Assembly: GCA_922989275.2 (NCBI GenBank)
Contig: OV277864.1
Coordinates: 4,774,001 to 4,838,000, forward strand
From: Gari tellinella
Taxonomy: Eukaryota; Mollusca; Bivalvia; Cardiida; Psammobiidae
Direction: 5' to 3'
DNA: 64,000 nt
Part shown: in pieces, positions 1-64,000 of the stretch
How positions within the stretch are numbered: the first letter of the stretch is position 1
How the letters are laid out: each line of letters starts with the position of its first letter
Notes under the pieces: generated by a model
Seen by the model: the letters and a program-made list of their open reading frames with translations, nothing else
Databases searched by the model: none
Told to the model about the DNA's origin: nothing
Position numbers and translations under genes: made by a program

Positions 1-163
1 CCATCTAATCATGTCATGTGTAATGTCTTCAGAATCGTCTTACAAAGACGATTCCACAGAGAGGTCACAAGAAAAGATTAGATAGAGAAATAAGAAATTA
101 AAAGCATTTTAAAATTTTGACTTATGACAACATTTGTCGTACGAAGATTTATGAAACGGGCCC
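1..163 (+). mobile_element. FamF MITE, cut by window edge
   Basis: The right part of a FamF element, ending in the terminal repeat ATGAAACGGGCCCC. The internal GATTAGATAGAGAAAT block and the GTCGTACGAAG subterminal motif match the complete copy at 6302. The left end lies outside the window. Confidence 0.75.
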
Positions 164-439
164 CAGGTTTATAACTGGTTAAAGATGTGGGGAAACTTTC
201 AAGTTTGCTTATGGAAGGTCGGTAGTTCTACCCAGTTACCGATGTGTGCCTGAAACAGTGCAACAAAGGCTTCTGGGGTCTTCATTTATGTGTAATTATA
301 GCTTGACGTCGCAATGCTACTGAAATACTGTTAAAAGCAACGAAAAACTAACACATTATAACTGGTTAAATACACAATTAGAAAGAGATTGATTTTCAAG
401 CTGTTTACCCTTTAAATGCTTAGCATAACTTGGCTAGCA

Positions 440-607
440 CTTGTAAACAGTGGAGATGTAGGAAAGAAAAGACGCCGTGAAACACGGCGTCTTTTCTTGA
501 TTAACAATCATATTTTACATTTCTTCAGCGTAATAAAAATAAATCTCATTTCTAGTATTTTCGCAGACGATGTTTTTAAAGCAGACGACGAGGCAACTCG
601 AAAAGTG
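440..607. mobile_element. FamB-like remnant with a substituted hairpin
   Basis: Contains a perfect 16-bp stem with a 3-nt loop at 464-498. Its inner part (GACGCCGTG/CACGGCGTC) is the FamB/FamC core, but the outer arms differ from every other copy. Downstream lie the paired GCAGACGA motifs typical of FamB right halves, then TTAA at 608-611. The left end is not recognisable. Confidence 0.5.
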
Positions 608-611
608 TTAA

Positions 612-1029
612 TCGTCAATCAAAGCGCTTCCGTTAAGACGTTAACATAAATAGCTGTCAAATACCGACACGTGATCAATCATCCAGAAAATATGTATATT
701 GAATTTGCAAAAATAACAATAATTTAGAATTTACAATGTTTATCTGAAATAGTTATGTTTGGACGAAAATATATTTATTTTCAGAAAGATAAATATTGTC
801 TAGTTGAACGAATTAGTTTAGAAATGAATTTCGTTAGAACTGCAGAAAATGAAATAATGGTTTTATTTTTTACTGCTAGAAATGTACATTGTACAATACA
901 GGATAGTTTTATGCGGTATGCAAACAGGAAGGAGTAACTGTTGTGATATTTCACAGCAAGTGGTTGGTTAACGCATTCAATGTGCAAACAGCTACATGAA
1001 GTTACTTTAATTAGTACGAAATACCAATG
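612..1029. other. No recognisable feature
   Basis: AT-rich sequence with only short random frames. I see no repeat family, RNA gene or coding signature. Confidence 0.5.
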
Positions 1030-1160
1030 GTGACTTTCGACTTCAAAATTCAAGCTTCATACTTTAGACTTGAAACATAAAACTTCAGATTTCTGACTTC
1101 AGACTTCAGACTAGTTTAAACATATTTTATTTCGAATATTTTACTTCAGACTTAAAATAG
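1030..1160 (+). repeat. Degenerate GACTTCA tandem repeat
   Basis: The heptamer GACTTCA and close variants (ACTTCAGA, GACTTGAA) recur about ten times with irregular spacing. It is a decayed low-complexity or minisatellite tract. Confidence 0.6.
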
Positions 1161-1283
1161 CTCATGGGAAAAACACCGACATGCCCTTCTTTTAATTTTG
1201 GCAGAGGAAACAATCGCCGTCAAATTAATACACAACTAAGCCACCCACCCACTGCAAGGTAGGAATATATTAGGGAGTCTTAC

Positions 1284-1460
1284 AGTGGAGAAAATACTAA
1301 ACTCTCCTCCCCTCAAACAAAACCTCACAAATAATCAATAAATTCCGTTTCCATGTGTAACATATTAAATCCATTGCAAACAGACTGTAACAAGACTAGG
1401 CGCCGGGTAAGCCGGTGTAAAATTAAGGTCCTAACTGTTTGCCACTGAAATAGACTGTTC
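1284..1460 (-). mobile_element. FamA remnant, strongly degenerate
   Basis: Begins ACAGTGGAGAAAA and contains TTGCAAACAG, GGCGCCGGGTAAGCCGG and AACTGTTTGCCACT in FamA order. Both ends and much of the interior are eroded. Confidence 0.45.
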
Positions 1461-1643
1461 TACATCGCATTCAATTCGAGTGCGTTTAGTTTCTCTTGTC
1501 GAGTGTCGGTTACGAGACGTTCAGATTTAGTATCATTAAAATGATAATTTATATGCATTCTAGGTTCTGTTTGTCACTAGCTCAAAATGAATCAAAATAC
1601 TTACGCAAAGTAATTGACATTTAACACGTTATGTCAGTCATAA

Positions 1644-1887
1644 CAGTGGAGAAGACGTCATTCGTCCCATTTAAACACCACGCAATGCAAACACAATGCA
1701 CTAGAATGTAGACAATTTCAATATTTACACATTTAAACGGTTCATTTAAATGTGAGTTACAAGCAGTTTGGAGCATGATCAGACGCCGGATTATCCGTTG
1801 TCTGATCTGGCTCCAAACTGTTTGCAACTGAAATAAAAGTTACAGAGTAAACGCGTTTATTTGGAAAGGATGGTGTCTTCCCCGCTG
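1644..1887 (+). mobile_element. FamA (A2) element with core palindrome
   Basis: CAGTGGAGAAGACGTCATTC at the left and CGCTG at the right, TA on the right side. The core reads GGAGCATGATCAGACGCCGG and mirrors back to GGCTCCAAACTG. GTAAACGCGTTTATTTGG near the right end fixes orientation. Confidence 0.8.
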
Positions 1888-2024
1888 TATCATTTGCACA
1901 TTTTGTTGTTTTACAACTGTTCTGGGATTTTATATCTCTGTATTTCATTCAGACAATATAATTAGAATGCCAAACACTTTTAATCCAGGAGAGACGTCAA
2001 AATACTCTACATTTCATGCATGTA

Positions 2025-2265
2025 CAGCGGAGAGGACGTTATTCTTTTCCGTTTAAACGAAACTCAAATGCATCGCAATAAAACGCAGAAAATGACACCC
2101 TTCCGACAATTTTGATTATGTTTGTTTATCTTAGTGGCAAACAGTTTGGAGCCTGATCAGACGACAGATTATCCGGCGTCTGATCAAGCTTCAAACTGTT
2201 TGTAATGGAACTATTTGTTTTAGCATAAACGCGTTTATTGGGAATAAATAACGTCTTCTCCACTG
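2025..2265 (+). mobile_element. FamA (A2) element with core palindrome
   Basis: TA-flanked, from CAGCGGAGAGGACGTTATTC to CTTCTCCACTG. The core is GGAGCCTGATCAGACGAC with a partly mismatched right arm. Confidence 0.85.
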
Positions 2266-2322
2266 TATGGATTCAAAATGGTATAGTTTTCAATTTTTCG
2301 GATATAACGTGCAGAATGCTAA

Positions 2323-2487: not shown

Positions 2488-2499
2488 TTAAAGTACTTA

Positions 2500-2756
2500 C
2501 AGTGGAGAAAACGTTATTCTTTCCCAATAAACGCGTTTCGCAAATACTAATATTTCACGTACATGTACAAACACTTTGGAGCCAGATTAGAAGCCGTGTA
2601 ACCTGGTACATGTATCTGATCTGGCTCCAAACTGTTTGCCACTCAGCTTAAAATCAATATTTAGAATTGTCAAAACTTGTTATTTTCTACATTTTAGTAT
2701 ATTGCGTTTGCGTTTCGTTTGCGTTTAAACGGGAAGGAATAACGTTTTCTCCACTG
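2500..2756 (-). mobile_element. FamA (A2) element
   Basis: TA-flanked, from CAGTGGAGAAAACGTTATTC to CGTTTTCTCCACTG. The core has a short insertion holding ACATGTA in its loop. GCGTTTGCGTTTAAACGGG lies at the right. Confidence 0.85.
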
Positions 2757-2789
2757 TAACATTCCTCAATCATGAACATCATTCATGTA

Positions 2790-3035
2790 CAGTGGAGAAA
2801 ACGTTATTCTTTCCCAATAAACGCGTTTACGCTAAAACGATTATTTCTATTACAAACAGTTTGGAGCCAGATCAGACGCCGGGTAACCGGGCGTCTGATC
2901 AGGCTCCAAACTGTTTGCCACCAAGATAAAGATGAATTATCAGAATTGTCCACAAGTTGTACTTTTGTACGTTTTAGTGTTTGGCGTTTGCGTACGTTTG
3001 CGTTTAAACGGGAAAGAATAACAGATTCTCCACTG
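2790..3035 (-). mobile_element. FamA (A1-like) element
   Basis: Complete, TA-flanked, about 246 bp, with core GGAGCCAGATCAGACGCCGG. The left TIR uses the A2 spelling (GAAAACG) and the right the A1 spelling (CAGATTCTCC), so it looks intermediate or recombinant. Confidence 0.9.
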
Positions 3036-3378
3036 TAATGTGCAATACAGGTGTGCAGCTTAAACTCGGATACGTATAAGCCAGAAGTTCATACAACAAT
3101 CCTTTGAACCTGTTTTGATGTAAGCAGTCCTAGTCTTAGACACTGATTTTAACTTCTATTATATGGGATTATACCGTAATTCTAAATGGTTTTTATTGGT
3201 ATGAAGCAAATTAAGTGTTAATTCATACATTAAATGGAATCTTTATAAATGAAATATCGATTGCCTTAAAAAGAAATTTAAAAATGATATAATGTGAATT
3301 CCTATCTCCTCAATTACTGCAACAGCACCCGTCTTCAACTTGAGATTTTACGTCAAATGCCTTTCAACTGAGCAATTA

Positions 3379-4180: not shown

Positions 4181-4638
4181 AAGTGGCGAAAACTTTATTC
4201 TTTCCGTTTAACACTTTCATTACAAAATTATTCGGGAGATGTTTACTCAATCATCGCTTTATCGTCGTCTGCTTCATTATTGTTGTCTACAAGACACGTT
4301 TAAGGATGTATTATTAAATAAATATCGATAAGAGTGTCAAACAGTTTGGGTCCTGATCAGACGCCGCATTACGCGGCGTCTGATCAGGACCCAAACTGTT
4401 AGCAAAAACGTGCTTTAAAGCGTCATTGAGAGTGAAAGGGTCAAACGCAGTGCAATAAAATTGATTAAATGTCAACTTGATGACAGTTCTGACTATCTAC
4501 ATTTATTTCAGTGGCAAGTATCAGACACAGGGTTACCCGGGGTCTGATATGGCTCAAAACGGTTTGTAGTTTAAATAATGGTTTTAGCTTAAACGATTTT
4601 ATTTTGCAACAAATAGAGGATAACTGTATTGTTTGGTG
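4181..4638 (+). mobile_element. FamA (A2) host interrupted by FamB
   Basis: The left end (GTGGCGAAAAC, TTATTCTTTCC, GTTTAA) stops at 4211 and resumes at 4441 as TCAAACGCAGTGCAATAAAA, continuing through the core (ATCAGACACAGGGTTACCCGG) to a decayed right end. Removing 4212-4440 and one TTAA restores FamA order. Confidence 0.75.
4212..4440 (-). mobile_element. FamB element inside FamA, at its TTAA
   Basis: Runs from CACTTTCATTACAAAATTAT to GAGAGTGAAAGGG. The core is a strong palindrome, GGGTCCTGATCAGACGCCGC with full complement. Flanks are TTAA on the left and TCAA (one change) on the right. Confidence 0.8.
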
Positions 4639-4639: not shown

Positions 4640-5666
4640 AAGATCGAAATTAAATTCATTGAGTGAACATCAGATATTATATTTTTACGAGTGGCGAAGG
4701 CACGAATGAATATATGACAGCCTGCTGTTCACAAGTGAATAGAATTTAGTTATTTCACTGAAAATATAAAGTTATTCTATTTATTCTATTTATTTCATGC
4801 TTTTTAACGACTCCCAAATTTATATCGAACGTCACTGATTTATTGGTTTGACGTCACCGTATTACGTCATTACTTTTCTTCCGTTTCGTACATGTAGTTC
4901 TCGACAAATCGGACTACCGTGCCGGAATAACACGATTACACACGATTGACTACGATTCTTGTCATACGGGCGTGGCGATTATCCCACTTTAAAACAGTGA
5001 GATTATCAGTGATATTCCACTATTATTCCCTAGTAAACTACCGGAATGCATGACATTATTACTTTCTTCTTCACTCTCTAATATAGACAAATGAGACAGA
5101 TAATTTGTGTCGTGACGTGCCTCAAATATAAAAGGTCTATCATTTGCGTTTTACTGGAAACCATTTCGACCCTCTGTACCTTCAACAGTAGACTTGCCAG
5201 TATTTGTTGTAAAGCCTTCAAATGGCGTGTCACTTTCCTAATATAAGAATAAATGAGTCACATACATATTTGTAAACAAATGACGCATGCCATTGATAAA
5301 CTAGTGAATTGTACAATGTAGCATACTTTCCCATATCAATATTTGTTTCTAGTCGTGAAAACACGACATGACATACATTGCGATAATATAGAAGCAAAAG
5401 AGCCCTTCTATTGCGACGTTTCAATTTTTAAAGCAGGTGGCTGGCTAAAGAAACGTAATATGAAATGTTCACAGATTAGGAGCTTTCTGCTTAATTTTCA
5501 TATTGCTGTAGGCTGTGACCTGTCTTTAGACCATCAAGTGGCGGTAACAGTGGGGGGTACTGTACATACATGAAGTATTTATCTAATTACAGTAATTAGC
5601 TAGGTTTCTCACATGCATTGTAGGTCATTATCTCAGCGATCAGTGCTATTAAAACTGTATTACTTA
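4640..5666. other. No gene recognised; a TATA-like motif near 5130
   Basis: No repeat family or coding homology seen. AAATATAAAAGG at about 5126-5138 resembles a TATA box, and TGACGTCA-like motifs lie near 4848-4868. Open frames here are short and unremarkable. Confidence 0.4.
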
Positions 5667-5667
5667 A

Positions 5668-5855
5668 CCCCTTTATTGCCACGACGTCATCAAACTAAAC
5701 ACTTTTCGTCTGCTTTCATTTCTCAAATGGAAACTTTAGGTGTTGCGGAAGAAGATATTTGATCCCCATCAGACGCCGGGACACGCGACGTTTGATCTGT
5801 TTCCAAGCTGTTTGCAAATAACTATTGTACTTCAGGTGAGGCATTGAATAGGTTT
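5668..5855 (+). mobile_element. FamB (B2) element, degenerate
   Basis: TTAA at 5664-5667, then CCCCTTTATTGCCACGACGT. The core is GATCCCCATCAGACGCCGGG with an eroded right arm. The right end, GAGGCATTGAATAGG, has lost its TTAA. Confidence 0.65.
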
Positions 5856-6546: not shown

Positions 6547-8985
6547 AGAAGTACATGTATCATGACACCACTGTGTTTAACAATAGTTGTTGTAGGCTTA
6601 TCTATACAATATTTGCTATTTGTAATCCACTTTTCGAATTGCCAACATATAATGGTCTGTTATAACCTGTTCAATCTTCTAAGTATTAGTAGAAAAAAAC
6701 AAACTCGAATAACATTTCAGAGCTAGAATATAATCAACCTATATCTACACAGTTTGCAAGGACATCGACCTCAATATCTAGCATTCATTTTAAGAATGAT
6801 ACATGTTGGAGACACGCCCTACCACTACAGATAAATGTCAATTTGCAAAATATCAAGTCAATTTTCATGTATATTAGGCGGTTTTTTGCGTGTTAAACTA
6901 GGTTAGATTTAAAGTTGATAAACATTCGTTCGAATATAAAGCCCTGTATATATTAAAGATTTAAGAAAAATAAAAAGATGACAAACTAGATGATTCATAT
7001 GGTCAGCTTAACAATACAGTTGAGAGTATGTCATTCTAACCCAGTAAACCTGTTTCTCCTTAATACCACAGTTTGTGTGTGAGTACATCGTAGAACCGCC
7101 GATTGTTGTAGATCATTCTCAGGACACTGTGATCTTGTCATTGACGTTTGGTCACATATCATAAGGAGGATATTAATTGCCCATTATACATCAACTAGGG
7201 CTACGAAAAGTGGCATCAAAGTACACGGTAGGGTGACATAGTGTTCCGAATATTTGTACAATGCCGTGACTTAGAGATTTATATTTGACCCAATTATAGA
7301 GGCTTATCCATAGCATATCCCCCATATCACACCAGCTTCCAGGAATTCCTAAAGTTGATGTGGGCGTACATCTAAGGATGATGGTATATGGTACATGTAT
7401 ACGGTGATATTTACCTTTGACCTCATTTATATAAAAGGATTGTCAGGGCACATTTATCACACCACATCAACTAGGAAAACAAATGTTGGTAAATGCGTTT
7501 ACATTTTGATGACATAGTGTCGCTTTCCATTTATAAATGCTGTGATATACATGTTTGACGTCCATTTATATAATGTTTGTACACATTTGAATTCAATTAA
7601 ATTCAAATTTTAAAGCATCTGGTGCATTTTCAAACATAATACATTGCTTTTGATACAACTAAGCAGGTTGTTTCCAAGCTCAGAATTGAAAAGTTTAAGA
7701 AGCTTTTTATGACTCTGACTAGTGACTCATGCCACGGGATATGCGATACCTACACACATTACACAGGTACAAATATTGCTCAGAGTCATGTTTACTAATT
7801 TTACACACAATTTAATCATGACATGATCTTGTGTTTCTGTGTACGCCATTATGTTTTTTCAAGTTTGACCAGTGTTAAAGGCCTTTACGTCGTATATCCA
7901 TGAAATAAATATAATGGATGGATGTCAGTACTACAATTGGCGGATTTTCTAACAAAATTAGTTTTTATTGTAGTTTTACGTATACATGTATAACTATGCG
8001 ATTTATCCTTTTCCCAAAAAACACATTATAGCGCATTTACTATTTCCTTGTTGATAGGTTATGATTTTACTTTGCCCTGTCCACGGACATAAGGTGGACA
8101 TATTTTAAATGTGTTTTAAACTTAAATCTGGTTTATCTAGCCACCTCTGTAAACTTTAAATCACACGCTATGGTTGAAAGGGTTACAAGTAATGTAATAA
8201 CTTATCTACATGTATGCCACATTTCTGCTACGTTCTTGACATTTTAGTAAAATGTTTAATGTCATGGGTGCATGAAAGTTCTAGGCAACTAGCAGCGAGG
8301 TTATTAGATAGCAATTCAAGTTTTAATACAATGCATCTGAAGGCTTAACTTTAACCTTCATTACGCTAAGCGATTGGCATCTGCAGAATATATCATCTGC
8401 AACAATTCTCAAAATGGATGTATTCTGCATTTTATTTTAACATTTTTCACAAAAAAATCAAACAATTTTGATCCAAACGCTTTGCTACAATTCTCACAAA
8501 TATGCCCATACCGTGCAGAGAATTAAACCAATAAAACATAACTGGCTCTTTGAATCCTATCATAACACTAGCTGGCAATTCATATTTGTGAATAAGCTAG
8601 ATGACGATAATATTTACGCCATGTGGCGTGAAAACAAGGTGTCCCCTGTGGGAAATGAGGGACAATATCAATAATAGTTCGTGCATTGCGATTCCTGCTC
8701 TGTTGTGAGTTATGGAAAGAGATAACCTTAGATCAAACGATTTCAGCAAACAATGATCTGCTTAGCCCGAATAATTGAAAGTGTCACGCAATTCTGTCTC
8801 AGGATTTACCGTGTTAAAACCTGAATTTACGTTATGCATGGCATTATTTCCCGTGTTCGGAATTCGCCCATATTCACATTAGGCAAACAAGGTGTATGAA
8901 ATGCAGAAACTGCATTTAGATATCTAAAGTTCTATGTTCCATTGTTACACTAGTATATATCTGTATGTTCTAAAATATATTGAAA
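6547..8985. other. Repeat-poor stretch, no gene recognised
   Basis: About 2.4 kb without FamA-D elements. Weakly similar blocks at about 7185-7290 and 7460-7570 share CATCAACTAGG and GACATAGTGTC. Frames up to 68 codons show no recognisable domain. Confidence 0.45.
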
Positions 8986-9232
8986 CAGTAGAGAATACGT
9001 TATTCTTTCCCGTTTAAACGAAACGAAACGCGAACGCAAAACACTAAAAGGTAGAAAAATGCAATTTTTTGGACAATTCTTATAATTCATGTTTATCTTG
9101 GTGGCAAACAGTTTGGAGCCTGATCAGACGCCGGGTTACCCGGCGTCTGATCTGGCTCCAAACTGTTTGCAATAGAAATAATAGTTTTCGCATAAACGCG
9201 TTTATTGGGAAAGAATAACGTTTTCTCCACTG
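8986..9232 (+). mobile_element. FamA element, complete
   Basis: CAGTAGAGAATACGTTATTC to CGTTTTCTCCACTG with TA on the right. Perfect core GGAGCCTGATCAGACGCCGG / mirror, loop GTTAC. Confidence 0.92.
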
Positions 9233-9353
9233 TATGTTATGATTAGGCTATACATGTATTTATCTGAGATGTGTATCTGTTTTTGTATATCTTTCACTGT
9301 CTGTCTGTTTGTGTGTCTGCCTGTAAGGCTGTGTCTAAATATGACTGTATGTA

Positions 9354-10421: not shown

Positions 10422-11029
10422 CAGTGGAGAATACGTCTTATTGCAAATAAACGCGTTTATGCTAAAACTAGTACAGCGTTCCCTCTCTACAACGACATCC
10501 AATGGGAGACACAAAGAATGTTCGTTGTTCGGAGGGAGTCGTTATAGGGAGTGAAATTTGCTCACACTTGCAAACAGCTTGAATCCAGATCAGACGCCGC
10601 GTAACGCGGCGTCTGATCTGGATTCAAGCTGTTTGCCACTCGTCATTAAGTTTTTGTTCTGTCAAAATGTCAAAAATGTAACTTTGAGAAAAGCAGCAGA
10701 CGACAATTTAAGCAGACAAAATTGCAGTCGTGAAAAAGTTGGACGTAATTGTCCTGTTTAGGGAACTGTGATAAGGGTCGTTGCAAGGAGGGAGTCGTTG
10801 TTGGGAGGGCCGTTGTAGAGAGGGAGAGCTGTACTTCCAGTGCAAACAGTATTGATCAGACGCAGGATACATGTAACGTGGCGTCTGATCAGGCTCCAAA
10901 CTGTTTATCGCTCAGATTAAATTGTATAGATCTAGTAAGAATTGTCAAAAACGTCTACATTTTATTGCAGAGCGTTTACCTTCCGTTTGCATGTAAACGA
11001 AAAATAATTACCTTTTCTGCGCTTCGTGT
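10422..11029 (-). mobile_element. FamA host interrupted by FamC
   Basis: The left end CAGTGGAGAATACGTCTTAT and GCTAAAACTAGTA stop at the FamC insertion. CTTCCAGTGCAAACAGT resumes after it and leads into the core (GTGGCGTCTGATCAGGCTCC) and an eroded right end. Excising FamC plus one TA restores the usual FamA reading. Confidence 0.85.
10474..10831 (+). mobile_element. FamC element, complete, nested in FamA
   Basis: 358 bp with TA on both sides. Termini CAGCGTTCCCTCTCTACAAC and the complement of CAGCTCTCCCTCTCTACAAC. The core is CTTGAATCCAGATCAGACGC with perfect mirrored arms, so it carries the shared palindrome in its own spelling. The right half has AGCAGACGACAATTTAAGCA, as in FamB. CAG termini with TA duplication fit a Tc1/mariner-type origin. 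Confidence 0.9.
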
Positions 11030-11805: not shown

Positions 11806-11931
11806 TTTCTTAAGTTACATGTAACCCTAGAGACCTTCCTACCTTGTCGTGGTGCTGGACTAAATTGTCATAGATATTTCTTTAATGTTTGTTAGACCGA
11901 GATTTTCCCCTCCGTCAAGAACTGAAAGGTA

Positions 11932-12177
11932 CAGTGGAGAATCTGTTATTCTTTCCCGTTTAAACGCAAACGTACGCAAACGCAAAACACTAAAACGTAG
12001 AAAATAACAACTTTTGGACAATTCTGATAATTCTTGTTTATCTTGGTGGCAAACAGTTTGGAGCCTGATCAGACGCCGGGTTACCCGGCGTCTGATCTGG
12101 CTCCAAACTGTTTGCACTGCAAATAATAGTTTTAGAGTAAACGCGTTTATTGGGAAAGAATAACAGATTCTCCACTG
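11932..12177 (+). mobile_element. FamA (A1) element, complete
   Basis: 246 bp, TA-flanked. TIR CAGTGGAGAATCTGTTATTC perfect at both ends, perfect core palindrome with loop GTTAC. An open frame runs through much of both strands but is a by-product of the repeat. Confidence 0.95.
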
Positions 12178-12374
12178 TAGGCAGGTCGGTGGTTTTTATC
12201 CCATGCACTGCTTGACAACGAATGATATTAGCCAAACTCCTCTTCCTGAAATCACCCTCATGACATCTCTTCATTCCTCATCATTCATCGGCGCTATATG
12301 ACCTATTTTGTGTCACAGATCCGTAAAACCAAACTCATCATCATCAGCAGCATCGCCATCTTCTTCTGAAGTTA

Positions 12375-12454: not shown

Positions 12455-12473
12455 TTAAGTATTTGCAAGCATA

Positions 12474-12719
12474 CAGCGGAGAATGTGTTATTCTTTCCCA
12501 ATACACGCGTTTACGCTAAAACTATTAGTTGCAGTGCAAACAGTTTGGAGCCAGATCAGACGCCGAGTAACCCGGCGTCTGATCAAACTCCAAACTGTTT
12601 GCCACCAAGATAAACATGAAATATCAGAATTGTCCAAAAGTTGTACTTTTCTACGTTTTAGCGCTTTGCGTTTGCGTACGTTTGCGTTTAAACGGGACAG
12701 AATAACAGATTCTCCACTG
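12474..12719 (-). mobile_element. FamA (A1) element, complete
   Basis: CAGCGGAGAATGTGTTATTC to GATTCTCCACTG, TA on the left. Core complete, with one loop-side change (CGAGTAACCCGG) that breaks one base pair. Confidence 0.93.
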
Positions 12720-13045
12720 TATAAATGTGTCTCTACTTTCAGTAAACTCTACAATTGAATCAATGTTATCCTCGCACGCTTCCATATCGTTAGCAGAGAC
12801 ATGCCTACACAGATAAAGACACTAGTTTGGGTTTTCGTATCGTAAATCTAATTCGAAATATATAGATTAAATCCAGCTCGGGGCTCTCTGTAGTACAATT
12901 TGATAACGATATCGCGTTGTGTTTAAATGCGTTTTAGAAAATAATAAAGATGGAATTATTTGTTTTAATCTCTTTTTGAAGATTAAAATTTAAATATTTA
13001 CATGCAAGGAGACAGCATGCAACAAATGCACGCACCTGTATTTAG

Positions 13046-13494: not shown

Positions 13495-13978
13495 AAGCCA
13501 TACCAGGAGAAAACCTGACTTGTTGCATTTCAAAAAATGAAGATCAAGGTCAGACAAATACGCGGCGGCAGGTCTTGAGCTACACTGTTTGATACCCACA
13601 TGCATCTTAAGCATTTTATGTACAGTGGAGAATCTGTTATTCTTTCCCGTTTAAACGCAAACGTACGCAAACGCAAAGCGCTAAAACGTAGAAAAGAACA
13701 ACTTTTGGACAATTCTGATATGTCATGTTTATCTTGTTGGCAAACAGTTTGAAGCCTGATCAGACGCCGGGTTACCCGGCGTCTGATCTGGCTCCAAACT
13801 GTTTGCAATGCAAATAATAGTTTTAGCGTAAACGCGTTTATTGGGAAAGAATAACAGATTCTCCACTGTACTTGTATTTGGCATTGTAGACCAAACTCAG
13901 TTACAGAGAATGGGGTGACGACGGTGCTTGTTCTGTACAATGTTGCAAAGCAATAAGGTTGGTTTTCTCATGGCACGA
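13495..13978 (+). mobile_element. FamR element interrupted by A1
   Basis: Matches 50201-50452 on both sides of the A1 insertion (CCACATGCATCTTAAGCATT before; CAATGTTGCAAAGCAATAAG after). The termini are inverted repeats around CCTTATTGC. The centre has CAGACAAATACGCGGCGGCA, a diverged relative of the shared core. Confidence 0.7.
13623..13868 (+). mobile_element. FamA (A1) element, complete, nested in FamR
   Basis: 246 bp between TA and TA, perfect A1 TIRs. The left arm has GAAGCC instead of GGAGCC, one unpaired change. The FamR copy at 50.3 kb gives an approximate empty site. Confidence 0.95.
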
Positions 13979-17768: not shown

Positions 17769-17772
17769 TTAA

Positions 17773-48066: not shown

Positions 48067-48098
48067 AGTGTCCTACTTATTTAGAATCAATACTGATA

Positions 48099-49594: not shown

Positions 49595-49835
49595 ACAGCA
49601 GAGAAACCACTCTTTCCCAAAAACACGTTTATATTTAAACTTATATCCACCGAAAACAGTTTTGAGCCGGATGAGACACCGGGTTTTCCGGTGTCCAGTC
49701 AGGTTCCTAACTGCTTGCTCCTCAGATTAAATTAAATTGTAAGCAATTTCAAGATATTGTAATTTTCTATATTTCATTGCCAATCGTTTACGTTTCATTT
49801 GCGTCTCGTCAGGACCTAAACTGTTGGACACTGAG
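49595..49835 (-). mobile_element. FamA (A2) remnant with a FamB scrap
   Basis: CAGCAGAGAAACCACTCTTT at the left. The core GAGCCGGATGAGACACCGGG mirrors to CCGGTGTCCAGTCAGG. From 49801 a FamB right arm (CGTCTCGTCAGGACC) replaces the end. Confidence 0.65.
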
Positions 49836-51618: not shown

Positions 51619-51759
51619 GTGGCATTCTGTCTTTAGTCTATAAACAGGCTATGGGATACTGGTTATATAGGTTAGAATGTATAATGTATTCAAATGGATT
51701 TGATTTCTCAAAATTAAATTTAATTTATTTGTCTTTTGAAATATTGAAATGTGTTTCCA

Positions 51760-51825
51760 TCATTTGGATCTTTATCGGACGTCGCGTTGCACTACATCTT
51801 ATCAAGACCCAAACGTGTTTTAAAT
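51760..51825. mobile_element. FamB core fragment
   Basis: TTATCGGACGTCGCGTTGC with ATCAAGACCCAAACG. Confidence 0.4.
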
Positions 51826-52181
51826 TACCATTTTTTTACGGGTAAGGCAGAGTGCAACTTAATGCACAATTTATTCTGCCTACAGAAATAGAATAACGCT
51901 TAAGCACTTAGCTATGTTTTGTTCAACACTAAGTATTTACGATAAAGACAGTATTCACATTTGGAGACAAACATAAATTGTGTTAGTCGTATGTTTTGCA
52001 CAAAAATAGAAAATGTGCACGCTGTAGTGTCCAAAAGTACGTCTCGTTTCCGAAAACAGACACTTACGATCAATTAACTATTCCACTGTAATATTGTCGC
52101 AGGTTGTAACGCCGCCGTCTGCAATTTGTTGTTAAGCTTAGATTTCAAGCACTCAAGGCTTGTGAGACATCGTCACAAGTA

Positions 52182-52369: not shown

Positions 52370-52450
52370 TATCAACTTAATGGTTCATACCTTGTTTTCA
52401 ATACTGCAAACAGATGGTTGATTAAATCATGCTGTAAATAAAACAAACTA

Positions 52451-52696
52451 CAGTGGAGAATCTGTTATTCTTTCCAGTTTAAACGCAAACGTACGCAAAC
52501 GCAAAACACTAAAATGTAGAAAAGTACAGCTTTTTGACAATTCTGATAATTCTTGTTTATCTTGGTGGCAAACAGTTTGGAGCCTGATCAGACGCCGGGT
52601 AACCCGGCGTCTGATCTGGCTCCAAACTGTTTGCACTGCAAATAATAGTTTTAGCGTAAACGCGTTTATTGGGAAAGAATAACAGAATCTCCACTG
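52451..52696 (+). mobile_element. FamA (A1) element, complete
   Basis: 246 bp, TA both sides. Loop reads GTAAC rather than GTTAC. Otherwise perfect core. Confidence 0.95.
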
Positions 52697-52764
52697 TACT
52701 CCTTTATGACCATTTTCTTTATAAGCATTATTTTTCGCCTGCTTTACGCTACAACTTATCTTAA

Positions 52765-53368: not shown

Positions 53369-53482
53369 GTTACAGTGTTTGGATCCTGGAAATATACATA
53401 GTTATTCAGCATCAATTCCGGATCTGAAACGTTTGCAAGAATCAGTGTAAACAATATTAGCAGTTAAATAGTTTTGTGTTAA

Positions 53483-53718
53483 CCCTTTTACTTTCGATGA
53501 CTTCATAAAGCGCATTTGCAAATAGTTTTGATCCTGATTAGACACCGCGTAAAGCGTCGTCTGATGACGATAAAAACTAGTTGCCACTTGTTGTATAATT
53601 ACACCAGTTATACTGTCTTAGTTCTAACTAAGAAACAATATTGCAGACAACAATATTACAGCAGACAATATCACGGTGAAAGGGTAAAATCCTCAAGGTA
53701 GATTTGATCATGAAAGGG
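53483..53718 (+). mobile_element. FamB element, complete
   Basis: 236 bp between TTAA at 53479-53482 and 53719-53722. CCCTTTTACTTTCGATGACT to TTTGATCATGAAAGGG. The core is diverged: GATCCTGATTAGACACCGCG. Confidence 0.88.
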
Positions 53719-54051
53719 TTAAAACTGTCTTGTTTATAATGACGTATTGTTAACAAAATTCCGCTGAGTGCTGGCGCACAAATTGAATTTTTGCGGGTTG
53801 CGTTGTTTTTGTATATTTGTTAGACTTGCTGCAACGGTGTATTATTAAGGAAAAACAGCTAGGATAAGTAGTCTTTAAGAAAGTAATGCCTTTACTATAC
53901 AAGATGAAAGAGGCCACAACAAGGCGTTATTGCCAATAATTATTATACAAGCTTAAGTATGAATCCTCCCCTCGACCACACGTCGTTAAGTGCAGAGAAC
54001 AAATAGAGCTGAGGAGAGTTCTCTCGACATACAACTATTTACTCCTTCACT

Positions 54052-54250
54052 GCCGTGACGTCATCAATTTAAAACAACTGTCGTCTGCTTTTGTTTATAA
54101 AATTTAACTTTTAGGTTTTTTGATATCAGATATATTGAAATGAGTGGCAAAAAGTTTGGATCCTGATCAGACGCCGCGTTACGCGGCGTCTGATCAGGAT
54201 TCAAACTGTTTGCAAATTACTCTTGCACTCGGGGTAAGGCAATGAAGGGG
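54052..54250 (+). mobile_element. FamB (B2) element, complete
   Basis: CTCCTTCACTGCCGTGACG to GGTAAGGCAATGAAGGGG. Perfect palindrome GGATCCTGATCAGACGCCGC. Flanks TTTA and TTAT are decayed TTAA. Confidence 0.88.
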
Positions 54251-54254
54251 TTAT

Positions 54255-54440
54255 ATCATGCCAACTGTATTTATCGTCGGCTTCAAAGTTGTCGTCTGCT
54301 TTTATATATTTAACAAACTGATGCCATATTCGTTTTTTATAATAAAACCATTAATGTGAGTATCAAATAGTTTGTATCCCGATCAGACGCCGATTAACTC
54401 GGCGTCTGATCGGGATCATACTTTTTTGTAAAATGTATTC
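54255..54440 (+). mobile_element. B3 element, degenerate ends
   Basis: GTCGGCTTCAAAGTTGTCGT, then core TATCCCGATCAGACGCCGAT with GGCGTCTGATCGGGATCATA. The arms co-vary (CCCGATC/GATCGGG). Confidence 0.7.
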
Positions 54441-54736
54441 ACGTAGTGTTCAGCATACTTTGGGTGGAAAGAATACAGAGGATTTAATTAGGTGCTAGGA
54501 TAGCAATAACGTTAATGGAAGAACCGTTGTTAAGTGGGGCTTGTCTTTATTTTTACAATACAAAACCACTACGTGATGCAACAACAATCATACACCGAAT
54601 AACTCTGCCTTTTGTCTATATAGTTCATCTAAACAATTCCGCCTGTTTATTGTAAACAGTAAAATGACGTTCTGTCCCAGCAAACACATCTGCACTTTAA
54701 TATCCTGTGCGTATGCGAACTGGTTTGAGCTAGATC

Positions 54737-54950: not shown

Positions 54951-55398
54951 GGTTATAGTTACTCATCGCCAACCAGACTTTAAATTGTGAAACATTCTGA
55001 TACATGCATGATAAATCGCCAATATTTGAAACTTTCTCAATTGTGTGTCCATTTATTGCATTGTCGCTTACGTTCGGTTTAAATGGGCAAACTAAACTTA
55101 GCAAATGTAATGAAAAGGCGCGTTATGGATTGTTTTGTGCTTTCCTTTCTGTTCCGGATCAGATGTCGACTAATAATGGTTTATAAATGTACATTTACGA
55201 CTCTTTATCACGAAACACATTTAAACTTCGAGCAACTATTTTGCAGATGTTAGTTGAGAAGCAGGTACATGTAATACTTGAAACGTGAAATACAATTCAA
55301 CTTTTATCTAACTTAGCTTAAGTATTGTCGAAATGGTTCACAGACCGTAGAGAACGACAGTCCTTGAAACATTTTAGCACTTCGGCCAGTTACATGTA

Positions 55399-55646
55399 CA
55401 GCGGAGAAAACGTTGTTCTTTCCCGTTTAAACGCAAACGAAATGCAAACGCAATACACTAAAAGGTAGAACATAGCAATTGTTTTAAAAAGTCTGACTAT
55501 TGGTTTTAAGCTGAGTGGCAAACAGTTTGGAGCCTGATCAGACGCCGGATTAGCCAGCGTCTGATCTGGCTCCAAAATGTTTGAAATGGAAATAATAGAT
55601 TAAACGTAAACGCGTTTATTGGGAAAGAATAACGTTTTCTCCACTG
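55399..55646 (+). mobile_element. FamA (A2) element, complete
   Basis: CAGCGGAGAAAACGTTGTTC to CGTTTTCTCCACTG, TA both sides. Core with one loop-side mismatch (CCGGATTAGCCAGCG). Confidence 0.92.
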
Positions 55647-55662
55647 TATCATCTGCTTCAGC

Positions 55663-56154: not shown

Positions 56155-56360
56155 TAACTGTCTGACATAATAAAGTGAAGAGGACGTACTTTTCCCGTTT
56201 AAACGCAACGAAACGCAAACGAAGTTTTTTTTAAAAAGTTGGAAAATTACAATATTGTTACATTTCTATCTATTTATTCAAATGTGAATGGCAAGCAATT
56301 TGGAGCCTGGTCAGACGGTTACCCAAATTGTTTGGAATGAAAATAATAGTTTAAGCTTAA

Positions 56361-57778: not shown

Positions 57779-57935
57779 TTAAACACGTTTATTGGGAAAG
57801 CATAGTTCATCTTCTCCATTATCCGTGTAATAATATTTTCTCATAACCATCCAAACTGAATGGAAGGAATTAGCACATAGGAGCCGTTCGCATTTCAAAA
57901 TCTATAACTTGTGGAGATTCTGTGTTCTGCCGATA

Positions 57936-58128
57936 CAGTGGAGAATCTGTTATTCTTTCCCGTTTAAACGCAAACGTACGCAAAACGCAAAGCGCTAAAA
58001 CGTAGAAAAGAACAACTTTTGGACAATTCTGATATTTCATGTTTATCTTGGCTCCAAACTGTTTGCACTGCAAATAATAGTTTTAGCGTAAACGCGTTTA
58101 TTGGGAAAGAATAACAGATTCCCCACTG
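57936..58128 (+). mobile_element. FamA (A1) element with a 53-bp core deletion
   Basis: A1 TIRs and flanks are intact (TA both sides), but TTTATCTTGG joins CTCCAAACTG. The left arm, loop and inner right arm are lost between TTGG and CTGG. Confidence 0.93.
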
Positions 58129-58748
58129 TACCTGGCGTCTACATCAATCCCCAGAGTTGTGTATCGATCATTGTTGACATTTTGTTAAACCAGTGACAAA
58201 CAATACGGGTCCTTTCAAACGCTCCCCATTTTTAAACCAAGGTGTGTGTGTGTCCCTTGTACAGTTGGGGATATGTTATGATTTTCCAATAAAGCTAGAA
58301 TCTGTGTCAAATGCCGTAAACTGCTTCCCATGTGTATTTAGATTGAAACTAAATGTAAACGTCTTGAAAAGTCTGTCATTTTTTAAATTGTATTTCATTG
58401 CATATGCATTTATTTTGTTAAAACATGAAGACATAACACTTTCTCTAATGTATCAACATCATTTTAAGAGTGCGAATGGCTTCCATTGTGAATATCCTAT
58501 TATTTCTCAAAGAAACTCGCTGCAAATCAATCAAGAACCGTTACACCCGTTGAAATGTTTGAAAGCTCATCAGACGTCAACTCTCTCAACGTTTGATCTA
58601 TCTGGTAACGAACTGCAAGACGTTCATTTTGAAACATTACGTCCATACTTTTAATAACTTGGTATTTCTACAACCCATTCCATTGTGTTACGGTTCGTCT
58701 AAAATGGACAGAATAACGTCTTTCCAGTTGTAAAAACAGGCGTGTTAA
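58129..58748. other. Probable very old FamA copies; no gene
   Basis: TACAGTTGGGGATATGTTAT with TTTTCCAATAAAGC near 58259, and ACAGAATAACGTCTTTCCAG near 58709, look like FamA ends. A 153-codon frame (58193-58654) crosses these remnants and has no domain. Confidence 0.4.
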
Positions 58749-58992
58749 CATTTTCACTGCCAATGGCACCAAAAGGCGACTTTACAAACAGTTTTGGTCC
58801 TGATCAGACGGTGCGCAACGCGGTGTCTGATCAGGGTCCAAGTTGTTTGACACTCGAATCGATAGTTTTGACGTCAAACTACATGTACCTAAACTCTAAC
58901 TTTAAAATCACCTTGCAGACACCAATGTTGAAGCAGACGACAATCTGGTGGTGAATGGATAAAAAATGCACGATTAATTTCGTGCCGAAATG
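58749..58992 (+). mobile_element. FamB element, complete
   Basis: 244 bp between TTAA at 58745-58748 and 58993-58996. The core TGGTCCTGATCAGACGGTGC mirrors with loop CGCAACG. GCAGACACCAATGTTGAAGC follows on the right. Confidence 0.85.
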
Positions 58993-59317
58993 GTTAAACA
59001 TACTTAACAATGATTTATGTATTCGCTTCTGTTGTAAGACAATGACGGTCAGTGATAGGCTTTTGACAGGTAATTATACGGTGTTTACAAGAAACACACA
59101 AACCTCGTATGTTGAGGTAGTGTTCTTACATTTCATATTTATTATTTAAGACTCGTCAAAGTGTCTGTGTCATGACGAGTTTTTCTGTAATGTTGTGAAT
59201 TTAGGCAGTACATGTAACTGTTTACTAGGGAAAACTAGATATACTATTTAAAGCTGCAATATATTTCACAACTGAGTATGGGAAGACTCTCGATGTTTCG
59301 TTGACATTTTATTCCAG

Positions 59318-59895: not shown

Positions 59896-60249
59896 ATCGA
59901 GGTGCGCCCTCTCTACAACGAGTGTGTGTGTTGCTCGGAGGAAGTCGTTATATGGAGGTAAAATTAAGACTTTGCTTACATTTCCAGATATCTTGAATCC
60001 AAATCAGACGCCGCGTTACGCAGCGTCTGATCTGGATTTAAGCTGTTAGTAATTCGTCATAATATTTCTTCTTTCAAAATATCGACTTATATGTCACTTT
60101 AAGGAAAGGCAGCAAGCGACAATTCTAAGCTGACGATATTGCAGCAGTAAAAAGGAGGTAACATAATTGCATTGTTTAGGGAACTGCTGAAAGAGTTGTT
60201 CTTAGGAGGCAGTCGTTGTTATGAGGGCTGTTGTAGGAAGGAAACACTA
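59896..60249 (+). mobile_element. FamC element
   Basis: GTGCGCCCTCTCTACAACGA to GTTGTAGGAAGGAAACACT. The core CTTGAATCCAAATCAGACGC mirrors to GCGTCTGATCTGGATTTAAG. TA is seen on the right. Confidence 0.82.
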
Positions 60250-60355
60250 TAATGTGAAAATGTAGAAAGGGTATCATAATACAATTCTACATGCATGGGG
60301 GAAGTGTTAAGACGTTTGCTGAGATAAAAAGAAATAGTGATACATGTACACGATA

Positions 60356-60601
60356 CAGTGGAGAATCTGTTATTCTTTCCCGTTTAAACGCAAACGTACG
60401 CAAACGCAAAACACTAAAACGTAGAAAAAAACAACTTTTGGACAATTCTGATAATTTTTGTTTATCTTGGTGGCAAACAGTTTGGAGCCTGATCAGACGC
60501 CGGGTTACCCGGCGTCTGATCTGGCTCCAAACTGTTTGCATTGCAAATAATAGTTTTAGCGTAAACGCCTTTATTGGGAAAGAATAACAGATTCCCCACT
60601 G
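60356..60601 (+). mobile_element. FamA (A1) element, complete
   Basis: 246 bp, TA both sides, perfect core; right end AGATTCCCCACTG. Confidence 0.95.
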
Positions 60602-60609
60602 TACATGCA

Positions 60610-60845
60610 CAATGGGGACCCCATTATTTCTCAATCAACGCGCTAATGCGAAAACAATAATTTCCAATGTAAACGGTTTGGAGATATAAAAAACCGGAAC
60701 ATTCGGTGTTTGATATGGCTGTAAATTGTTTGATACTCTATTTAATAAAAATGATCATCAGAAATTCCAGGTCATTTTATATTGTGTTTTCTTTTTTATT
60801 TCGTTTAAACGGGAACGAATAACGTCTTCTGACTCTTCTCCACTG
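60610..60845 (-). mobile_element. FamA (A2) element sharing its right TA with the next element
   Basis: CAATGGGGACCCCATTATTT to GACTCTTCTCCACTG. The core is eroded: GGAGATATAAAAAACCGGAA. The right flanking TA is 60846-60847. Confidence 0.72.
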
Positions 60846-60847
60846 TA

Positions 60848-61062
60848 CAGTGGAGAATCTGTTATTCTTTCCCGATAAACGCGTTTACGCTAAAACTATT
60901 TTTTCTTTTACAAACAGTTTGGAGCCAGATCGGCGTCTGATCAGGCTCCAAACTGTTTGCCACCAAGATAAACATGAAATATCAGAATTGTCCAAAAGTT
61001 TTAGCGCTTTGCGTTTGCGTACGTTTGCGTTTAAACGGGAAAGAATAACAAATTCTCCACTG
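60848..61062 (-). mobile_element. FamA (A1) element with loop deletion
   Basis: CAGTGGAGAATCTGTTATTC to AATTCTCCACTG. GGAGCCAGATC joins GGCGTCTGATCAGG, losing the left GACGCCGG and loop. TA both sides. Confidence 0.93.
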
Positions 61063-61354
61063 TATCACGGACTATTGATAAAGAGATAAACGAACGAATC
61101 TTTACATTTACAACTGTATATATTATACAAATACTATAAATAAATCTTAACCATTAGCATATAGAGTGTTTCATGAATATGAAAATAAGATGAGTTACAC
61201 TCCATATAGTGACATGCTGTTTACAAATGGGAAAACAGTCTAAGGAATATGGTATTCGTATAATCAACATGCACTTTAAGTTGATGCGAAAGCCATGGCA
61301 GACAGTAGTTAAGCAGCTTAATTTTACATTTAGTACAATTTTCATATGCTATTA
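61063..61354. other. No recognisable feature
   Basis: AT-rich; overlapping short frames on both strands without domains. Confidence 0.35.
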
Positions 61355-62324: not shown

Positions 62325-62490
62325 GTACCGTTTAAACGAAACAAAACGCAAACGTAACCAATAATAAGTAGCACATTACATATCTTGGAAACATGCTTAC
62401 GGATTATTTTTATTATGAGATGCAAAGGGTATGGATAATGGCCTTAAAACTTTTTGCAAAGGAAACTGTTGTTTAAACTAAAACACGTTT
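62325..62490 (+). mobile_element. FamA remnant without core
   Basis: CCGTTTAAACGAAACAAAAC, GCAAACGTAACC, then AACTGTTGTTTAAAC and AAACACGTTTA. Confidence 0.5.
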
Positions 62491-62493
62491 ATA

Positions 62494-62968
62494 CAATGGA
62501 GAAAACGTTATCCTTTCCCGTTTAACCCCCACATTATTTTTGAGTTTTTTATCCCTACACCGTTATTGTGTCGTAAGCTGCAATACTATTGTATCCAATA
62601 TCATTTCAAAGTAAGAATTAATAGATTATTACATAAGACATATCGAAAAGGGTGTCAAACAGTTTTGATCCTGATCAGACGTCGCGTACCGCGGCGTCTG
62701 ATCAGGATCAAAACTGTTTGCAAAATCGACTTTAGTCGATTCTGGCGGTGAAAGGGTTAAACGCAATCAAAACGCATTGCAATAAAACGTAGAAAATGTC
62801 AACTTGTTGATAATTTTGTCTATTTATTTTAATCTGAGTGACAAATAGTTTGGAGCCTGATCAGTCGCCGGGTTACCCGGCGTCTGATCAGGCTCTAAAC
62901 CGTTTGCAACGGAAATAATAGTTTTAGCGTAAACCCGTTTATTGGGAAAGAATAACGTTTCTCCACTG
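62494..62968 (+). mobile_element. FamA (A2) host interrupted by FamB at its TTAA
   Basis: CAATGGAGAAAACGTTATCC and TTTCCCGTTTAA precede the insert. TTAAACGCAATCAAAACG follows and leads through a full palindrome (GGAGCCTGATCAGTCGCCGG) to GTTTCTCCACTG. Without the insert it is a normal 240-bp A2. Confidence 0.93.
62526..62756 (-). mobile_element. FamB element nested in FamA
   Basis: 231 bp between TTAA at 62522-62525 and 62757-62760. Palindrome GATCCTGATCAGACGTCGCG with full-length mirror. A small extra hairpin ATCGACTTTAGTCGAT sits beside the right arm. Ends CGGTGAAAGGG. Confidence 0.93.
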
Positions 62969-63034
62969 TAGGTCAAGAGTACATGTAAGGGCCTCTACGT
63001 TGCATTTGCCCGTACTTGTCATTTCACTGTGTTA

Positions 63035-63490
63035 CAGCGGAGATGACTGACGTGACTCATTCTCATTACATGCGTCTATACTAAAACAATTATTTCTATT
63101 GCAAACACTTTGAACCAGATCAGACGACGGGTAACTTACAGTGGAGAATCTGTTATTCTTTCCCGTTCAAACGCAAACGTACGCAAACGCAAAGCGCTAA
63201 AACGTAGAAAAGAACAACTTTTGGACAATTCTGATAGTTCATGTTTATCTTGGTGGCAAACAGTTTGGAGCCTGATCAGACGCCGGTTTACCCGGCGTCT
63301 GATCTGGCCCCAAACTGTTTGCACTGCAAATAATAGTTTTAGCGTAAACGCGTTTATTGGGAAAGAATAACACATTCTCCACTGTATCTGATCGTGCTCC
63401 GAACAGATTTACAACTCATATAAAAACAAGATTTATTTGAAAAGTTGTCATCTTCTGCATGCTAATGCGTTGCTTTTTCCATTTTTCCCA
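63035..63490 (-). mobile_element. FamA (A2) host interrupted in its core loop by A1
   Basis: CAGCGGAGATGACTGACGTG, TTGCAAACACTTTGAACCAG and ATCAGACGACGGGTAACT reach the A1 insertion. TCTGATCGTGCTCCGAACAG resumes after it. The right end is eroded. Confidence 0.75.
63139..63384 (+). mobile_element. FamA (A1) element, complete, nested
   Basis: 246 bp between TA and TA. Core near perfect (loop-side GGTTTACC). Confidence 0.95.
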
Positions 63491-63589
63491 GAGCCTATTT
63501 CTAGGTTTGACGGCATGTAACCATTTAAGTTATAGTTACATGTAGAACATATTAAGTGAAATCTTAATGATTAAGACGGGGCGTAACGA

Positions 63590-63829
63590 GCGTTAGAATA
63601 TAACCTATTTTTTGATTGGCCCATTCAAACGCTTCTAGTAAACATTCTGGTTGTGAGATCGCCAAATATGGCAGTGTTTACAATTAGTTGCTACGAGCCG
63701 GAGCTATCTTATAGCGCGCGCAGACACCACGCGACGTCGAAAAACAACGAAATTCTTAATGATTAAGTGCCGCACTTATTGGGTAGCAAAAGGCAGTTTG
63801 ATTGGTTTAAAATGTAGGTTATATTCTAA
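63590..63829. mobile_element. FamS: inverted-repeat element
   Basis: GTTAGAATATAACCTATTTT and the complement of GTAGGTTATATTCTAAAG form the ends; ATTGGC/CCAAT blocks follow inward. Near the right end CTTAATGATTAAG also occurs, and the same word lies just outside the left end at about 63563. Single copy here. Confidence 0.6.
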
Positions 63830-63834
63830 AGAAG

Positions 63835-63894
63835 ATTAATAAAAAGGCAGAATGTGTCTTAACGTACATTTTGTTGTGTCTTTAGTCTGCTTTA
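63835..63894. repeat. Degenerate FamD hairpin
   Basis: AAGGCAGAATGTGTCTTAAC on the left arm, TAGTCTGCTTTAGG on the right. The two arms match poorly. Confidence 0.45.
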
Positions 63895-64000
63895 GGCAAT
63901 TGCCTGTCAGGATGCAGACACAAGTTTTCTATGCTTCTTTCAAGAGATCATGGTTATATCATGAAAGGGGTATCTCTATGAGGAAAATGTAAGTGCGATA

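Follow-up and report, generated by a model that had tools for sequence, protein, structure and literature searches.

Described elements with conserved interiors

Piggybac-type and pogo-type miniature inverted-repeat transposable elements (MITEs) are in general short and non-coding, with inverted ends and TTAA or TA targets. The closest precedent for the elements treated here are the CMITEs of the coral Acropora (PMC2872659), which have a TTAA target, CCCTTT-like ends and an interior of about 75 bp that is more conserved between families than the ends, whereas the interiors of different MITE families are typically far more dissimilar. The same text describes core variants that follow the end families with one exception, tandem arrays and a composite element produced by CMITE insertion, and it suggests that the interior acts in transposition. 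Here we analyze a palindromic core of 65 nucleotides (nt) that recurs in MITEs of a 64-kb stretch of the Gari tellinella genome (G000:C9:4774001-4838000, hereafter the window; assembly of 1.6 Gb in 80 contigs), together with a sample of 205 kb from 13 contigs of the same genome (21 stretches, L001-L021).

As in the CMITEs described there, we found a TTAA target, CCCTTT-like ends, an interior more conserved than the ends and a core type that follows the family. Tandem arrangement recurs as well: at L010 6432-6980, three core-bearing units of FamB, one of the TTAA groups introduced below, form a head-to-tail array with a spacing of 242. Two features differ. The described CMITE families have TTAA ends only, whereas the core studied here also sits in families with TA-CAGTG ends (a hyphen separates target site and element); and the CMITE interior is not called palindromic in the available text, whereas our core is a near-perfect palindrome with mirrored changes, a pattern repeated by a second palindrome. 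Copy numbers are also far apart, with about 1600 CMITE copies estimated in A. millepora and, by extrapolation from a small sample in which a few cores were counted twice, roughly half a million core pieces here. A 60-nt CMITE interior used as query matched six of our consensuses no better than shuffles.

Unlike MITEs in general, as characterized in PMC2872659, the families described here have an interior in common. A parallel is the V highly conserved domain (PMC6887750), which short interspersed elements and the MITE MER6 have in common: it, too, is a conserved domain that occurs in elements with different ways of moving and that spread as the passenger of another element; there a retroposon and a Mariner-derived MITE are joined in vertebrates, whereas here two DNA-transposon types share the core in one genome. 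A literature search covering titles and the openings of abstracts, with little subscription literature, brought up no description of this palindrome, nor of an interior common to TTAA and TA MITEs.

One palindrome in TA and TTAA families

The core consensus, CAAACAGTTTGGAGCCAGATCAGACGCCGGGTAACCCGGCGTCTGATCAGGCTCCAAACTGTTTG, folds into a stem of 31 pairs with a 3-nt loop, and that of family A into 30 pairs with one mismatch. Its two motifs CAAACAGTTTGG and GATCAGACGCCG, at up to one mismatch, occur 96 and 97 times in the window, against 0.51 and 0.06 expected from shuffles. BLAST located 56 core places in the window with one query and 64 core pieces with three queries, a few cores being counted as two pieces. 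An earlier note on this stretch had proposed that three MITE families, FamA, FamB and FamC, carry the same central foldback in more than 50 copies or traces, and both statements are borne out. The sample yielded 68 pieces in 18 of its 21 stretches, so that the core is about three times as dense in the window. From the total of 132 pieces, 127 places were classified after dropping those truncated at the end of a locus or fused with an adjacent core (one core in L007 still counts twice). The spacer between the two motifs, previously taken for a variable hexamer, has 5 nt (AGCCA, ATCCT) and is mostly family-specific rather than freely variable; a literal pattern with an N6 spacer gave no match because of this length. 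The consensus cores of the families are identical to one another at 56-64 of 65 positions, whereas the ends differ.

Searches in other sequence collections were negative. Two translated pieces had no homologue; each had a single candidate with shared words, and neither candidate was scored. Viral contigs gave no match to three core patterns, prokaryote genomes none to one core pattern, and phages none to one FamA stretch. Since the collections are viral, prokaryotic or protein-based, these negatives are not informative on other animals. Nor was there support for relatives among junk peptides with a similar translated palindrome in mollusc or cnidarian annotation. In the genome itself, counting with a DNA query gave 0 candidates, as such a query skips common words.

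The core occurs in two TA-CAGTG families (A and C) and in at least five TTAA families (B1, B2, B3, D and F), all of which have the features of MITEs: 213-362 nt, non-coding, terminal inverted repeats (TIRs), TA or TTAA ends, and many copies. FamA (58 copies) has the consensus TA-CAGTGGAGAA with 251 nt, and FamC (13 copies) has TA-CAGTGCTCCCTCTC with 361 nt. Both hence begin TA-CAGTG, and the three kinds of ends originally distinguished reduce to two target types. Similarly, FamB had been described as one family with CCC...GGG ends and a TTAA target; the target was confirmed, but several TTAA families with different ends are involved. FamB1, B2 and B3 (10, 12 and 12 copies) have TTAA-CCC... ends. 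The FamD set (14 copies, TTAA-CTCTTTGCATGC) proved mixed on copy-by-copy inspection and contained the further family F (TTAA-CCCTTAGCCTGCC), which comprises three copies including L014_377, moved there from the B3 set. A single locus, L012 8034, suggests one more TTAA family.

TA was found at both ends of 37 of the 58 FamA copies and at one end of 12; for FamC the counts were 6 and 5 of 13. With 2 nt of slack, TTAA was present at both ends in B1 2/10, B2 1/12, B3 3/12 and the D set 4/14, and at one end in 4/10, 8/12, 7/12 and 8/14, respectively, many of the copies in these counts being old or cut. After TTAA, the piggyBac-type start CC[C/T]T (as defined in PMC2872659) appears in B1 (CCCTTT), B3 (CCCTTT) and F (CCCTTA). 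FamB2 starts CCCCTT, so that its fourth base gives CCCC rather than CC[C/T]T, and FamD lacks this start (consensus TTAA-CTCTTTGC). Families A, C and H have a TA target and a CAGT start (TA-CAGTGGAG, TA-CAGTGCTC, TA-CAGTAAAA), as do elements with the pogo-type transposase domain DDE_1. By target and start, we place A, C and H with the pogo/Tc1-mariner type and B1, B2, B3 and F with the piggyBac type. The earlier statement that one core lies in families with TA and with TTAA ends is borne out.

The core is inherited within families. When the 127 places were assigned with probes from the flanks only, every one of the 109 assignable places had the core type (A, B or C) of its flank family (54 A, 14 C, and 41 B1, B2, B3 or D with a B core), while 18 had no assignable flank. 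Conversely, in 79 loci chosen by both flanks only, the interval between the flanks measures at least 45 nt in 75, including 59 with exactly 65 nt, and 6, 11, 37 and 43 nt in the remaining four; the core thus belongs regularly to these families. Agreement of core and flanks throughout, which the earlier note had named as refuting its proposal, holds inside each family but breaks down when FamA is set against the TTAA families, with types rather than trees being compared.

Homology beyond the core and nesting

Homology between FamB1 and FamC covers about 150 nt (80%) and begins 3 nt to the left of the core. This stretch consists of the core, CACTC, a spacer and GCAGACGACA, and the FamC consensus continues to GCAGTGAAAGTGTTAG, which by eye is close to the FamB right end GCAGTGAAGGGGT(T/A)AA and looks like a decayed TTAA end. 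Judged from this homology and the TTAA-like end, FamC probably obtained its core from a TTAA MITE. B1, B2, B3 and C also resemble one another in their right flanks (0/1000 shuffles in each of the six pairs), to which that of D is related more weakly. A comparison of the FamC left flank with 240 flanks gave a score of 22 for the element L034 (99.9% point 16, maximum 23), which is only suggestive. FamA has just 71 nt in common with B1, B2, B3 and C, followed by CACTC; we infer that its core, too, derives from a TTAA MITE.

Nested copies show a possible route for such a transfer. FamB3 is nested in FamA twice in the window, both times at a TTAA within GTTTAAACGG (Table 1). The element L034, 2794 nt long, has a DDE_1 domain and is bounded by TA at both ends and by 16-nt TIRs that differ by a single mismatch; between these TIRs lies a full-length FamB1-type MITE (70% over positions 1-213). 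A core-bearing TTAA MITE also sits in the 3' part of the DDE_1 copies L032, L033, L039 and L040, a lineage whose right end lies beyond the stretch read; L032, L033 and L040 contain, in their common stretch, a FamA copy or core as well, their right TIR likewise lying beyond it. At L020 7811-8100, a chimera combines the FamB3 left end with the core and right end of FamC, a further sign of exchange between families. Capture of the core by nesting is thus possible in general and likely for FamC. This keeps one half of the earlier proposal that the palindrome is a mobile or capturable module; movement of the core by itself is a different matter, taken up below.

In the genome, the piggyBac domain PF13843 has 86 matches, and 150 of 486 candidates for the DDE_1 domain PF03184 were scored. 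We read 10 of the 86 piggyBac loci and 15 of the 150 DDE_1 loci and located TIRs in five and six of them, respectively. The ends of FamF match those of the piggyBac element L031 (0/1000 and 1/1000 shuffles, with 40 comparisons made). No match to the ends of L024 or L031, the only two piggyBac elements compared, was obtained for B1, B2, B3 and D, and the five TIR-bearing piggyBac elements among the ten loci read have no core between their ends. DDE_1 elements in six of the 15 loci end in TA-CAGTTGAAC, CAGTAGAAC and CAGTTAAAC; the TIR scan required TACA, so that only the GT of the CAGT start is free evidence. By eye, A, C and H show no TIR match beyond CAGT in these six loci, and other elements may match.

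The piggyBac copies L024, L025, L026, L027 and L030 are near-identical (98-99.8%), have open frames of 614-633 amino acids and were perhaps recently active; four of them (L024, L026, L027 and L030) have CCCTTTCGGCGCC ends. The DDE_1 elements L036, L037, L038, L041 and L043 measure 2.8-3.1 kb, with TA-CAGTAGAACTTCGATG or CAGTTAAACTTCGATG ends.

Constraint on sequence and symmetry

For each family set we counted variants per site in two classes: those seen once, which mostly postdate insertion, and those common to several copies, which were mostly inherited from a source. In all seven sets, the core has fewer inherited variants per site than the flanks (pooled odds ratio 2.07, p 2e-11), for example 0.25 vs 0.53 in C and 0.17 vs 0.51 in B3. 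Seen-once variants are not depleted in the core of old A (1.03 vs 0.69), C (0.72 vs 0.73) and B2 (0.97 vs 0.90). With the four loci below 45 nt excluded, core divergence is lower than flank divergence in 65 of the 75 flank-chosen loci.

Symmetry behaves similarly. Changes between family consensuses are mirrored in the opposite arm in 13 cases and not in 5, whereas within single copies 98 are mirrored and 765 are not (Fisher p 5e-9). This count kept cores that fitted the search pattern (A 54/58, B1 8/10, B2 11/12, C 12/13) and left out six of the 14 D-set copies, which belong to neither D nor F. A stricter count, in which a mirrored type entered only once and cores with gaps were left out (kept: A 46/58, B1 7/10, B2 10/12, B3 11/12, C 10/13, D set 9/14), still gave 9:5 between families against 59:454 in copies (p 7e-6). 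Decay after insertion hence breaks the symmetry, and the source lineages keep it.

A second palindrome, P2, repeats the sharing between TTAA and TA families seen for the core (P1). P2 has 72 nt (GCAGGTTGAAAGTAAAGCAGAATGCGCC...), is unrelated to the core and was located 131 times in the sample and 8 times in the window. It belongs to a TTAA-CCC family (64 of 64 assigned places), and its variant P2b to a TA-CAGTAAAACCTCTCTA family (9 of 9), with 50 of 123 places unassigned. Consensus cores of the P2 families (G and H) differ at 13 sites, which form five mirrored pairs and two that are not, while single copies have 38 mirrored and 245 unmirrored changes (p 0.001 against the consensus differences). 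In the TTAA family, inherited variants amount to 1.19 per site in the core and 2.26 in the flanks, as opposed to 0.93 and 0.45 for those seen once. Together the two palindromes make up most near-perfect palindromes with stems of at least 24 in 269 kb (P1 65 and P2 63 of 138).

Origin and role of the core

Sequence comparison leads us to a joint explanation to which we assign a probability of roughly 55%. The core would be an ancient component of the interior in a large set of piggyBac-type TTAA MITEs; their ends would have diverged or been exchanged, with little change to the core itself. A core-bearing TTAA MITE would insert into a TA-CAGT (pogo-like) element and be copied along with it, and later deletions would leave a TA MITE with the core inside. 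Selection would keep core sequence and mirror symmetry in the lineages that still jump, most likely because the dyad or hairpin aids amplification in cis regardless of which transposase works at the termini. In this explanation, the TTAA to TA direction, the FamA route and the amplification function are the parts that we infer. A function of the palindrome that several MITE lineages need, as suggested before, receives indirect and partial support from the depletion of inherited variants and from the mirrored changes between families; a cis-acting aid to amplification is our best guess.

Several observations speak against this explanation. As to transfer, no data here polarise its direction, and among the transposase-bearing elements read none has FamA, B1, B2, B3 or FamC ends. 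The FamA right flank matches no better than shuffles even when CACTC is included (58/1000 at best), and its left flank has no convincing match to any TTAA copy; over 162 flanks its best score was 20, which we did not accept (99.9% point of the null 17, null maximum 21). An apparent homology between the left flanks of FamA and FamD (0/2000 shuffles with the mixed FamD set) was rejected, as it fell to 60/2000 with a clean consensus; against single D copies, 2 to 202 of 2000 shuffles scored as well. Nor was an intermediate shrunk to FamA seen. As to inheritance within families, under an initial, less refined classification core and flanks agreed in 94 of 127 places and disagreed in 6, with 27 unassigned, and the two flank-chosen loci with 6 and 11 nt mean that nearly core-less copies exist. 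As to constraint, the depletion of inherited variants is significant alone in five sets and not in young A (p 0.12) and D (p 0.27), and it may be inflated by mixed subfamilies in the flank sets and by flank alignment error. Seen-once variants, too, are fewer in the core than in the flanks of young A (0.28/0.42), B1 (0.71/0.96), B3 (0.77/0.88) and D (0.63/0.85), and the P2b TA family (9 copies) shows no depletion of inherited variants in its core.

Among the alternatives, the one that survives best is that the core has no function and is a relic of common descent and nesting, its symmetry being mechanically restored by template switching or gap repair when the palindrome is copied or transposed. 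Family-wise inheritance and nesting indeed need no function, and palindromes can self-correct through template switching. Mirrored changes also arise within single copies, as the 98 of 863 changed pairs show; in FamA there are 23 against about 4 expected under independence, subfamily-shared and CpG changes included. However, most single-copy changes are unmirrored, so that correction after insertion must be slow relative to mutation and would have to act during transposition only. A mere relic also leaves the near-identity of the sequence itself between family consensuses unexplained. We consider absence of function unlikely, though a serious contender.

It is considerably less probable that the arms are transcribed and that a hairpin RNA, yielding small RNAs or shielding the elements from silencing, is what selection maintains. 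Four consensus cores do have a strong predicted fold (30-31-pair stem, -57 to -62 kcal/mol, z -14 to -17), which the mirrored changes preserve, but the window has no Rfam match at gathering scores, and the same pattern is expected of a cruciform or dyad site in DNA. Least probable of all is a core that is itself mobile and inserts into MITEs: the core places without assignable flank and the end of FamA homology to B1, B2, B3 and C near the core edges, which were inspected by eye only, would fit, but homology runs past the core in B and C, and the complete type-flank agreement and the regular presence of the core in flank-chosen loci make a self-mobile module unlikely.

Our preferred explanation, an old TTAA-MITE core passed on by nesting and kept as a cis-acting aid, bears on the open question of how certain MITEs attain such large copy numbers. 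What remains constant across families and two target-site types, in two unrelated palindromes, is the interior and not the ends. Whether the palindrome raises amplification, and whether it does so with piggyBac as well as pogo-type transposases, can thus be tested directly. Nesting in a transposase-bearing element and subsequent shrinking would also be a plain route by which interiors move between superfamilies. Tentatively, and with less confidence than in the explanation itself, we may generalize from the two cases (P1 and P2) in this one genome that palindromic cores might be transposase-independent cis amplification modules, constrained in sequence and symmetry, gained by nesting and kept because they raise copy number.

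Elements in the window

Table 1. Copies of the core-bearing MITE families and of P2 in the window.
Element	Position	Strand	Core	Remark
FamA	36929..37178	+	36994-37058	best copy, TA-CAGTGGAGAATC...
FamA	1643..1889	-	1760-1824	
FamA	2023..2267	-	2138-2202	
FamA	2498..2758	+		core with insertion at 2568
FamA	2788..3037	+	2853-2917	
FamA	4442..4612	-		split by nested FamB3
FamA	8985..9234	-	9105-9169	
FamA	10832..11023	+		68%
FamA	11930..12179	-	12050-12114	
FamA	12472..12721	+	12537-12601	
FamA	13621..13870	-	13741-13805	
FamA	18247..18496	+	18312-18376	
FamA-like	19041..19284	+		old, 66%, eight mirrored arm changes
FamA	19331..19580	-	19451-19515	
FamA	19761..20010	-	19881-19945	
FamA-like	20912..21126	-		old, 63%
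FamA-like	21136..21368	+		old, 62%
FamA	23348..23577	-		72%, damaged core
FamA	25133..25377	-	25253-25317	
FamA	31261..31506	+	31326-31390	
FamA	31850..32057	+		core deletion
FamA	33270..33519	+	33335-33399	
FamA	33705..33950	+	33769-33833	
FamA-like	38937..39172	-		old, 68%
FamA	39177..39426	-	39297-39361	
FamA	42890..43140	-	43011-43075	
FamA-like	43513..43749	-		old, 64%
FamA-like	45830..45998	-		old, 64%
FamA	46120..46365	-	46238-46302	
FamA-like	48097..48337	-		old, 69%
FamA-like	49594..49804	+		old, 69%
FamA	52449..52698	-	52569-52633	
FamA	55397..55648	-	55519-55583	
FamA-like	56191..56360	-		old, 64%
FamA	57934..58130	-		most of core missing
FamA	60354..60603	-	60474-60538	
FamA-like	60623..60830	+		old, 67%
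FamA	60846..61064	+		core deletion
FamA	62757..62970	-	62842-62906	split by nested FamB3
FamA	63137..63386	-	63257-63321	
FamC	10472..10833	+	10571-10635	best copy, TA-CAGCGTTCCCTCTC...
FamC	20461..20790	-		nested in FamA fragment
FamC	29207..29564	+	29303-29367	
FamC	59925..60241	+	59985-60049	
FamB1	24038..24250	+	24078-24142	TTAA-CCCTTTGCCTGC..., TTAA at both ends
FamB1	16269..16482	-	16378-16442	
FamB1	17769..17961	-		77%
FamB1 (possible)	404..611	+		61%
FamB1-like	37197..37369	-		66%
FamB1-like	54274..54455	-	54364-54428	68%
FamB2	54038..54253	-	54148-54212	TTAA-CCCCTTCATTGCC...
FamB2	32684..32898	+	32724-32788	
FamB2	35879..36070	+	35903-35967	
FamB2	15901..16116	-		76%
FamB2-like	5664..5854	-		67%
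FamB2-like	17593..17772	+		63%
FamB2-like	24941..25116	+		62%
FamB2-like	51699..51849	-		70%
FamB3	4208..4444	-	4338-4402	nested at TTAA of FamA copy
FamB3	62533..62760	-	62656-62720	nested at TTAA of FamA copy
FamB3	40085..40337	+	40125-40189	
FamB3	39483..39697	+		66%, core deletion
FamB3-like	53479..53722	+		65%
FamB3-like	58745..58997	+		67%
FamD set	23774..23945	+		TTAA-CTATTTACATGC..., damaged core
P2	5911			
P2	16994			
P2	27766			
P2	31021			
P2	44355			
P2	45192			
P2	50701			
P2	52864			

The window holds some further repeats. A 484-nt unit occurs as a tandem pair at 56607-57574 (94% matches), where inverted arms lie at 56959-57195, and 40986-41849 contains stretches of three-base repeats (CTA, AGT). 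An open frame at 22526-22912 resembles, by eye, a piece of a retrotransposon without long terminal repeats.

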